This document shows, in pieces, positions 13,063-15,650 of a stretch of DNA of 64,000 nucleotides; the stretch's first letter is position 1, and every line of letters starts with the position of its first letter. This DNA comes from Opitutia bacterium (GTDB lineage Bacteria; Verrucomicrobiota; Verrucomicrobiia; Opitutales; UBA953). The position numbers and the translations under genes are program-made. Below the pieces are notes generated by a model. That model was not told the DNA's origin. It saw only the letters and a program-made list of their open reading frames with translations, and did no database searches. The stretch covers positions 372,001 through 436,000 of the forward strand of contig CANGFP010000001.1 of NCBI GenBank assembly GCA_947453335.1, given 5' to 3'.

Positions 13063-13815
13063 CTAGCGGTTGAAGAGCAGGCGCATCAGCGAGAACCGTT
13101 CGCCATGCGCGAGCTCCGCCGGGGGCGCGGCGTCCACGCCGGACTCCACGAGCGTGATGGCCTTCTCCTCTTCGCGGACCTTGTCGCCCTTGATGGTCTT
13201 CTCGGTCCACTTGGCCTGGACCACGCCGAAGGGCGTCGACTCGTCGCGCCAGACCGTGCCGCGGAGGATGATCGTCTGTTTCTTCACGAACGGCGGGTCG
13301 ATGATGGTGTACGATTCCATCTTCAGTCGGAGGCAACGGAAGGTCCGCGCCCCCAAGGCCAAGCTCTCGGCCTCCGCCGTCTCCGCCGCGAGCGTGTTGG
13401 TCGTGCGGTAGCCGGCCTTGCTTGCGAGCGAGGCGACATCTTCAGGCAGCATGTGCCAAGGCCCCTTCACGGGTTCCGAGAAGAGGATCTCCGCCGCCGA
13501 CTCGAGCAGCTTGTTCGCGCCGGCGCGGTCGAGGTCCTTGGGGACGAGGAAACGCAGCGGCGCCTTGTGGCTGGAGCCCAGCCAAGCGACTGGCTCCACG
13601 CTCAGCCAGACATGGGGCTTGTCGCCGACCTTGCCGCCGTCGCGCACGGACAGCTTGATGCGCGTGGCTTCGGCGTCGGGTTCCGGCGCGGTCTTCCGGA
13701 TGTCGTAGGTCGCCCAAGCGCCGGGTGCGGGCAGTTTTTCCGCGAAGATGTTCCATTGGGCATGGGCGCAGGCCGAGCCGCAGAGCAGGGCGAGGAGGCC
13801 GAGGAAGTTCCGCAT
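13063..13815 (-). CDS. secreted protein of unknown function
   Basis: A 250-residue product with an N-terminal signal peptide (hydrophobic stretch LGLLALLCGSACAHA, likely cleavage near residue 19). The mature part is rich in beta-prone segments: WATYDIRKT, HVWLSVEPV, TFRCLRLKMESY, TIILRGTVWRDESTPFGVVQAKW. The closing GTVWRDxxxPFGVVxxKW pattern resembles the end of lipoprotein-carrier-like or DUF domains in which a half-barrel holds a lipid, but I cannot assign a family. There are no catalytic motifs. It is convergent with the pectinesterase and divergent from the cimA leader region, so it is transcribed alone. Confidence 0.7.
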   Translation of the reverse strand: MRNFLGLLALLCGSACAHAQWNIFAEKLPAPGAWATYDIRKTAPEPDAEATRIKLSVRDGGKVGDKPHVWLSVEPVAWLGSSHKAPLRFLVPKDLDRAGANKLLESAAEILFSEPVKGPWHMLPEDVASLASKAGYRTTNTLAAETAEAESLALGARTFRCLRLKMESYTIIDPPFVKKQTIILRGTVWRDESTPFGVVQAKWTEKTIKGDKVREEEKAITLVESGVDAAPPAELAHGERFSLMRLLFNR

Positions 13816-13920
13816 ACGGTCATTTTCTTCAAAAAAGAGGGGTTTTGGCGAGCCGAGTCTGCGCCCGCCGCCTTTGCCTTTGACTCAGGAGGGCCTTTTC
13901 CTTGGAGTTTGCCTTCACCC

Positions 13921-14004
13921 ATGGAAACCGCGGCCCAGTCCCAGACCCTTCCCCTCGCGGGCGGTCGCGCCGTCATTCCTGCGATTATCATCATCGGGCT
14001 CTAA
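13921..14004 (+). CDS. candidate isoleucine-rich leader peptide of cimA
   Basis: A 27-codon ORF (ATG 13921, TAA 14002) lies just upstream of the citramalate synthase gene and in a different frame. Its end reads VIPAIIIIGL: four consecutive Ile codons (ATT ATC ATC ATC, 13984-13995) just before the stop, plus another Ile, a Val and a Leu. Citramalate synthase is the first enzyme of the threonine-independent isoleucine route, so runs of Ile codons are what a transcription- or translation-attenuation leader would need. A GGAG at 13904-13907 is a possible, rather distant ribosome site. Three stem-loops follow (13995-14057). Expression is untested; the call is inference. Confidence 0.6.
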   Translation: METAAQSQTLPLAGGRAVIPAIIIIGL

Positions 14005-14061
14005 GCCCGCTGAACGGCTCGCCCTTGGCGACTTCCCGTTCCGCGGCGCCCGGAACGGCGA
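13995..14061 (+). promoter_or_regulatory. stem-loop array between the Ile-rich leader and cimA
   Basis: Three consecutive hairpins are readable: CGGGCT/AGCCCG (13995-14000 with 14004-14009, overlapping the leader stop codon), TCGCC/GGCGA (14019-14023 with 14027-14031), and CGTTCCG/CGGAACG (14037-14043 with 14051-14057). A second GGCGA at 14057-14061 could pair with the same TCGCC, giving a mutually exclusive fold. The last hairpin lacks a clean U tract, so control at translation or by Rho is as likely as intrinsic termination. Confidence 0.45.
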
Positions 14062-14093
14062 CTCCCCTTATCCTCCTTTCCTCCCCCACCACC

Positions 14094-15650
14094 ATGGCAC
14101 GAAAAATCGAAATCTACGACACCACCCTCCGCGACGGCTCGCAGGGGCTGGGGATTCATTTCTCGGTGGCCGACAAGCTGCGCGTGGCCCAGGAGCTCGA
14201 ACGATTCGGCGTCGCCTACATCGAGGGCGGCTGGCCGGGCTCCAATCCGCGCGACATCGAGTTCTTCCATGAGGCCCGGAAGCTCAAGTTCAAGCACGCC
14301 AAGCTCGCGGCCTTCGGCTCCACCCGCAAGAAGGGCATCCGCGCCTCCGAGGACGCCCAGGTCAAGGGCCTCCTCGAGGTCGAGACCCCGGTCGTCACGA
14401 TCTACGGCAAGACCTCGGCGCTGCACGTCCGCGAGGTCCTGCGCTGCACGCCCGAGGAGAACCTCGCGATGATCGCCGACACCGTCGCCTTCCTCAAGTC
14501 CCACGGCCGTGAGGTCGTCTACGATTGCGAACACGCCATCGACGGCTGGAAGGAGGATCCGGCCTACGCCGCGGCCTGTTTCCGCGCCGCCGCCGAGGCC
14601 GGCGCCTCGCGCATCGTCCTCTGCGACACCAACGGCGGTTCCCTGCCCGACGAAGTCGCCGAAGCCACGCGCCACGCCCGCGCCGCCGTCAAGGCCGCCA
14701 TCGGCATCCACACGCACGACGACTCCGGCCTGGCCTTGGCCAACGCCTTGGCCTCGCTGGACGCAGGCGCCGTCCACGTGCAGGGCACGATGAACGGCAT
14801 CGGCGAGCGCACCGGCAACTGCGACCTCACGGCCGTCATCCCGGTCGCGCAGATCAAGCGCGGCTGGAGCTGCGTCCCCGCCGCTTCGCTGAAGCGCCTC
14901 ACCGCGCTCTCCCGCTTCGTCGACGGCGTCACGAACCAGGCCCCCGATCCCCGTCGTCCGTGGGTCGGCGCCGCCGCGTTCGCCCATAAGGGCGGTACGC
15001 ACGTCGACGCCATCCGCAAGTTCTCCGCCGCGTACGAGCACGTGGACCCGTCCGCGGTCGGCAATTCCCGCGACGTCCTCGTCAGCGACCAGTCCGGCCG
15101 CAGCAATCTGCTGCTCAAGGCCGCCGAGCTGGGCATCGAGCTCGACAAGGACGCGCCCTCGACCCGCGTGGCGCTCGACGAGCTGAAGAAGCTCGAGCAC
15201 AAGGGCTGGAGCTTCGAGGACGCCGACGCCTCGCTCGCGCTGCTTCTCCGCAGCCACATCGGCAAGGCCGCCGCCGTTCCCTTCGAGGTCGTCAAGTACC
15301 ACATCTCGGTCCAAGGCGGCCTTAAGGACGCCTCCTGCGAGGCCACGGTCCGCGTGCGCATCGACGGCAAGGAATCCCTGACCGTCGCCGAAGGCGAAGG
15401 TCCGGTCCACGCCCTCGACCAAGCCTTGCGCGAGGCCCTCGTGAAGGCCTTCCCGAAGCTCAAGAAGGTGCATCTCGCCGACTACAAGGTCCGCGTGCTC
15501 GCCGGCCAGGACGGCACGTCCGCGCAGACCCGCGTGGTCGTCCGTTCCAGCGACGGCGCCCGCTCGTGGGGCACGGTCGGCGTCAGCGCCAACCTCGTCG
15601 AGGCGTCCCTGCGCGCCATCGTCGACGGCTACGCGTACGCGCTGTCCTGA
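14094..15650 (+). CDS. cimA: (R)-citramalate synthase
   Basis: Condenses pyruvate and acetyl-CoA to citramalate, giving 2-oxobutanoate for isoleucine. The 518-residue cytoplasmic enzyme has the alpha-isopropylmalate/homocitrate synthase TIM barrel: IYDTTLRDGSQG (residues 6-17), the citramalate-type GGWPGSNPRDIEFF, LCDTNGGSLPDEV, HTHDDSGLA (metal His-x-His) and GTMNGIGERTGNCDL. The C-terminal part (from about residue 400) is the LeuA-type allosteric domain for feedback control. ATG 14094 gives the family N-terminus; the frame is open further upstream but lies across the leader. The GWPGSNP block and the Ile-rich leader both favour citramalate over isopropylmalate synthase. Confidence 0.92.
   Translation: MARKIEIYDTTLRDGSQGLGIHFSVADKLRVAQELERFGVAYIEGGWPGSNPRDIEFFHEARKLKFKHAKLAAFGSTRKKGIRASEDAQVKGLLEVETPVVTIYGKTSALHVREVLRCTPEENLAMIADTVAFLKSHGREVVYDCEHAIDGWKEDPAYAAACFRAAAEAGASRIVLCDTNGGSLPDEVAEATRHARAAVKAAIGIHTHDDSGLALANALASLDAGAVHVQGTMNGIGERTGNCDLTAVIPVAQIKRGWSCVPAASLKRLTALSRFVDGVTNQAPDPRRPWVGAAAFAHKGGTHVDAIRKFSAAYEHVDPSAVGNSRDVLVSDQSGRSNLLLKAAELGIELDKDAPSTRVALDELKKLEHKGWSFEDADASLALLLRSHIGKAAAVPFEVVKYHISVQGGLKDASCEATVRVRIDGKESLTVAEGEGPVHALDQALREALVKAFPKLKKVHLADYKVRVLAGQDGTSAQTRVVVRSSDGARSWGTVGVSANLVEASLRAIVDGYAYALS

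Follow-up and report, generated by a model that had tools for sequence, protein, structure and literature searches.

For the ilv, leu, trp and his genes, attenuation by leader peptides is a classical mechanism (PMC10272879, PMC1262725). In a survey from 2010, leader-peptide systems were described as having been shown earlier only in Proteobacteria and Actinobacteria, and the survey itself added cases from Firmicutes (PMC2965389). No report of leader-peptide control of cimA, or of any such control in Verrucomicrobia, was found in the papers searched, most subscription journals lying outside the search, and a comparison of the leader described here with Rfam 15, T-box included, returned nothing above threshold. 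The window, the whole 64-kb stretch of DNA that was analysed, comes from an uncultured genus of freshwater bacteria in the Opitutales and carries a short isoleucine-rich ORF upstream of cimA, which probably belongs to an attenuator of the ribosome-mediated kind, sensing charged tRNA-Ile and controlling this gene. The features of the locus are the following:

13872..13886, + strand: promoter-region element CTTTGCCTTTGACTC, containing a -35-like TTGAC; putative promoter role
13921..14004, + strand: leader-peptide uORF, METAAQSQTLPLAGGRAVIPAIIIIGL*, 27 codons; found in all 44 genus leaders
13984..13995, + strand: four tandem Ile codons, ATT ATC ATC ATC, the proposed stall site, with GGG CTC TAA next
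14094..15650, + strand: cimA, citramalate synthase, 518 aa, ATG at 14094; the presumed regulated gene

The 27-codon ORF, its four consecutive Ile codons near the stop and the gap of 89 nt between the end of the uORF and the cimA ATG were reported in the first-pass annotation, and all were confirmed to the exact coordinate. Its choice of cimA as the controlled gene is also supported, the product scoring 650.9 bits against the curated model TIGR00977 (cut-off 450), which identifies it as a citramalate synthase, and the leader being found only before cimA. The locus thus shows two hallmarks of attenuators, namely tandem codons for the regulated amino acid within a short ORF and a downstream gene that makes the amino acid (Ile) encoded by the codon run. 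Since the neighbouring ORF 5' of the leader (13063-13815) lies on the minus strand and is divergent, the leader is part of the cimA promoter region. The segment 14000-14100 folds better than 200 of 200 dinucleotide shuffles (z -2.87); the folding of a longer segment that includes the uORF is not exceptional by the same measure (z -0.71).

The element at 13872-13886 sits about 40 nt 5' of the uORF across the genus and has a core, CTTTGACTC, that is near-invariant in the genus alignment; there is one exact copy of CTTTGCCTTTGACTC in the window, and one per cimA locus in nearly all members of the genus. No clear -10 was seen beside it, and a sigma-70 consensus search of the leader region gave no match, so that a sigma-70 consensus promoter before the leader was rejected as a candidate. 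The strong conservation of CTTTGACTC, upstream of the leader, could mean that the region is preserved as a promoter or other DNA-level element, with an ORF that arose by chance and no RNA regulation; this explanation is hardly credible, as it does not account for the conservation of the reading frame, the wobble changes in the Ile codons, the compensatory changes in the stems and the switch logic, all of which are set out below.

A whole-genome search yielded a same-genus set of 55 genomes, from 44 of which the cimA upstream region was extracted (leaders L016 and L022 are counted among the 44). In these 44 leaders the uORF always starts with ATG and always has 27 or 29 codons, with an additional in-frame ATG upstream in one leader (L002). 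The peptide ends Ile-rich (IIIIG, IITIIG, IIGIIG), less markedly so in a few cases (IITTLG and KITILG, for instance); four Ile fall within the last eight codons in 29 of 39 distinct uORF versions, and some lineages have only two or three there. Ile codons are divided almost evenly between ATT (71) and ATC (70) in the genus uORFs, which means that the wobble base varies while the amino acid is kept. Leaders of the window's clade, those with 27 codons, show coding selection on the uORF frame, its N/S ratio over the last 11 codons being 0.44 as compared with 2.3 and 50 for the two alternative frames; for the clade with 29 codons the frames were not separated by this test. In 45 of the 45 genomes whose cimA has its 5' end intact, a covariance model of the leader detected a single strong copy, always 5' of cimA; in the remaining ten genus genomes, which gave no strong match, cimA is unmatched or is a fragment lacking its 5' end. 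With this model no second strong copy was found elsewhere in the genus genomes, no convincing match in other genera of the same family (one hit had an E-value of 0.099) and none among 388 sampled Verrucomicrobiota outside the genus. The leader is real and its conservation far beyond chance, and the test set beforehand by the first-pass annotation, that an Ile-rich ORF and hairpins be conserved in close relatives, was passed in 45/45 genus genomes, together with compensatory changes in hairpin A and in the inner stem described below.

Conservation of the peptide could also reflect an arrest peptide, in which the ribosome would stall on a specific amino acid sequence instead of sensing charged tRNA. 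As this would predict, AQS, GRA and PA, which lie outside the run of Ile, show a fair degree of conservation; the N-terminal half and the residues next to the Ile run vary (IIII, IITII, IIGII, KITIL), while an Ile cluster 5' of the hairpin persists, and sequence-specific stalling is accordingly improbable compared with the sensing of charged tRNA-Ile.

Several RNA structures were predicted between the end of the uORF and cimA, the percentages of paired cells having been computed over 31 distinct leaders:

13995..14009, + strand: hairpin A (1:2), CGGGCT-cta-AGCCCG, spanning the uORF stop codon; 94.6% of cells paired
14007..14046, + strand: 2:3 structure, CCGC.GAACGG (14007-14017) with CCGTTC.GCGG (14036-14046); antiterminator-like, putative ON state; 98.4% of cells paired
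14019..14031, + strand: inner hairpin TCGCC-ctt-GGCGA, inside the 2:3 loop; 5/6 pairs changed on both sides
14036..14058, + strand: hairpin C (3:4), CCGTTCCG-....-CGGAACGG; putative OFF state; 95.2% of cells paired
14059..14070, + strand: spacer and U stretch, CGACTCCCCTTA, its U's 10-12 nt past hairpin C; not a U-tract

Strand 1 (CGGGCT, 13995-14000) holds the last uORF codons and pairs with the start of strand 2, and strand 4 (CGGAACGG, 14051-14058) is the alternative partner of strand 3. The core of the arrangement is a conserved switch, GAACGG / CCGTTC / GGAACGG, in which 14012-14017 and 14051-14058 compete for 14036-14041, so that the 2:3 and 3:4 structures are mutually exclusive, with a layout as in the trp and ilv attenuators. 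Taken together, 2:3 with the inner stem has 91.3% paired cells and hairpin A with the inner stem and hairpin C has 90.3%, against 24-49% in slid controls. Hairpin A shows one pair with a compensatory change, from C-G to G-C. The 2:3 and 3:4 helices are near-constant and show no double changes, 3:4 having a change from U-A to U-G in eight leaders; being too constant for double changes, they are not backed by covariation, which supports hairpin A and the inner stem, and they rest on conservation plus the switch logic. It had been suggested at first that TCGCC switches between two copies of GGCGA; the second copy is not conserved and this pairing is specific to a few species.

The effect of the ribosome was modelled by folding each leader with the ribosome footprint masked, the 3' edge being placed at P-site +15; footprint edges were assumed and folding was computed at equilibrium. 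A ribosome placed on the stop codon gave 3:4 in 44/44 leaders and 2:3 in 0/44, and one stalled on the last Ile codon made 2:3 dominant in 38/44. When a switch was defined as a difference in 3:4 between the two states above 0.5, it was predicted for 39/44 real leaders, against 73/880 (8%) of controls in which the stretch from the stop codon to strand 3 (region 2) had been shuffled. Five of the 44 leaders fall below this threshold; in the AT-rich leader L003, hairpin C is retained even in the stalled state. Prediction and conservation thus agree on mutually exclusive structures placed so that the position of the ribosome could decide between them, as is expected of an attenuator, and the predicted switch follows the logic of trp and ilv attenuation. 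The isoleucine leader peptide and the attenuation logic put forward in the first-pass annotation are in this way backed by both conservation and predicted switching.

On these grounds (conservation, alternative structures, predicted switching and the nature of the target gene) we infer stalling and a direction of control. Under Ile shortage, a ribosome on the uORF would stall at the Ile codons just 5' of hairpin A, covering strand 1 and freeing strand 2, so that 2:3 would form, hairpin C would be blocked and cimA would be expressed. When Ile is ample, the ribosome would reach the stop codon and cover strand 2, hairpin C (3:4) would form and cimA expression would be cut. Cells of this genus can probably sense isoleucine shortage by means of the cimA leader. 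The regulatory IlvA domain PF00585 was found in 0/55 genus genomes, by a model blind to IlvA forms that do not carry this domain, and its absence is consistent with cimA being the entry step to Ile in the genus.

The step by which hairpin C would reduce expression is less certain. There is no U-tract directly 3' of hairpin C, as already remarked in the first-pass annotation, and the leader does not fit the strict definition of a trp/ilv-type intrinsic terminator. Such terminators are in use elsewhere in the genus: nine U-tract hairpins, most with long stems, were counted in the 64-kb window against 0-3 in shuffles, and a leuA-like gene of the genus has a conserved U-tract terminator just upstream; no Ile leader was seen at leuA in the genus.

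A Rho-dependent mechanism was one of the two options offered in the first-pass annotation. The leader tail before cimA averages 52% C and 5% G, and such a C-rich, G-poor stretch could act as a Rho site hidden or exposed by the leader. Pyrimidine-rich start regions are also found 5' of leuA in the genus, and Rho itself was not detected: its RNA-binding domain (PF07497) was found in 0/55 genus genomes, a set in which 22 reach 90% completeness or more, and TIGR00767 at E<=1e-40 had no match in the seven genus genomes tested, against 162 of 177 sampled Opitutales. The genome of the window is only 63% complete, and the result is the same among the near-complete genus genomes (0/22). The failure to find Rho in the genus led to the rejection of Rho-dependent control of the leader, which is very improbable. 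In the sister genus g5 (G074), Rho was likewise undetected by TIGR00767; it is present in g3 and g4, which belong to the same family.

The other option, a translational output, would keep the same Ile switch, with hairpin C or 2:3 altering ribosome loading at the pyrimidine-rich cimA start. It would agree with the finding of neither U-tract nor Rho and with the position of hairpin C, which ends 22-50 nt from the cimA AUG, and it has a parallel in the actinobacterial ileS T-boxes, predicted to sense tRNA-Ile and act on translation (PMC1262725). Against it, neither 2:3 nor 3:4 covers the cimA start, and the predicted accessibility of positions -20 to +15 of cimA is 0.73 in the stalled state vs 0.75 at the stop; by folding prediction no leader is clearly more accessible at the cimA start when stalled. 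No SD is evident at the cimA start and none is sequestered, and sequestration of the start site was rejected, given the lack of a predicted change in accessibility between the two states. The UUU near hairpin C, moreover, keeps its spacing to the hairpin and not to the AUG. A translational output is for these reasons a rather unlikely rival.

This short U run bears directly on the alternative of an output at transcription. T occupies offsets 11-13 after hairpin C in 71-92% of distinct tails, and the UUU stands at a fixed distance from hairpin C (sd 1.7), whereas its distance from the AUG varies (sd 6.1). It lies 10-12 nt beyond the hairpin C stem, a distance similar to the 11-12 nt that has been reported for pauses stabilised by a hairpin (PMC12288461), and this fixed spacing hints at an RNA-polymerase pause or a suboptimal terminator. 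Because no U-tract, no Rho and no predicted change at the start site were found and the U run is fixed to the hairpin at pause-like spacing, we lean towards transcription arrest or suboptimal termination. The chances are about even that, as the output, transcription is arrested or terminated early at hairpin C through a U-poor, pause-like signal, instead of a canonical U-tract or Rho. A more specific proposal, made tentatively, is that a pause-type hairpin at a fixed spacing of 10-12 nt from a short U run arrests RNA polymerase according to the position of the ribosome, on a platform that uses neither U-tract, Rho nor start-site sequestration, in a lineage that has lost Rho. A U-less cimA attenuator is relevant to the ways in which premature termination may come about, and the 44 aligned leaders offer a well-conserved test case of an attenuator without a U-tract in bacteria seemingly without Rho.

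Ile-rich leaders of other kinds were found elsewhere. In f14, another family of Opitutales, unrelated uORFs rich in Ile stand before cimA, such as MKATIIIAAIITIARLPGQVDAA (L163) and MFPSIIIAAIIIIARRPGQVNSA (L210), and these leaders have classical terminators, for example CCCCGGGC-ACAAACT-GCCCGGGG-TTTTTT. A model built from them finds similar leaders (for example MNQRAIIIAAIIIRPHSGRRRMAV) before ilvA-like genes, for which NCBIfam gives threonine ammonia-lyases as the best matches, at scores below the cut-offs; in L217-L221, L223, L225 and L227 of this family, the U-tract Ile attenuators before ilvA-like genes are related in sequence to those at cimA. A MAQRTITHIGIAIIIITGVSPGG uORF with a U-tract terminator precedes cimA in an Acidobacteria MAG (L120), and an Ile-rich uORF ending in ...SRIIIIGPPRVR lies upstream of cimA in a Sumerlaeaceae MAG (L095). 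In the sister genus g5, where cimA is very similar to that of the window, the Ile uORF was not found; L198-L202 and L205 of this genus share a GGCAAG..CTTGCC-like hairpin just 5' of cimA. As the f14 leaders (at cimA and ilvA-like genes) and that of L120 carry Ile uORFs, it is probable that the entry step of isoleucine synthesis is under the control of Ile leaders more widely, and that the genus of the window has an unusual U-less variant of this control. Unrelated Ile leaders before the same gene, cimA, either arose separately or diverged beyond recognition. cimA, together with threonine ammonia-lyase in related families, thereby joins the genes under probable Ile leader-peptide control.

Compared with known systems, the Bacillota leu and ilv T-boxes (PMC12452182) resemble the cimA leader in sensing the charging of a branched-chain amino acid tRNA, but they bind the tRNA directly and have no leader peptide, and the cimA leader has no T-box match. 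The candidate leader peptides of the Mycobacterium cys operons (PMC1262725) share with it a codon run and the lack of a recognisable U-tract terminator; conserved hairpins were not found there and Rho was invoked, whereas the cimA leader has conserved hairpins and Rho went undetected in its genus. The f14 leaders likewise combine an Ile-rich uORF before cimA with a stem that competes with a downstream hairpin, but differ in their strong CCCCGGGC..GCCCGGGG-TTTTTT intrinsic terminator, in their unrelated peptide and RNA and in having region 2 inside the uORF. With the trp, his and ilv attenuators, among them ilvL of the E. coli ilvGMEDA operon and the 'ilvB-II' uORF of Corynebacterium ilvBNC (PMC10272879), the cimA leader has in common tandem codons for the end product in a short ORF, mutually exclusive 2:3 and 3:4 structures and a location upstream of a gene for making that amino acid; it is unlike them in its target, cimA, in having no U-tract after 3:4, in its sequence and fold and in matching no Rfam family. 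As modelled here, the cimA leader would act by a mechanism like that of a leader-peptide attenuator, while standing outside the strict U-tract terminator class.
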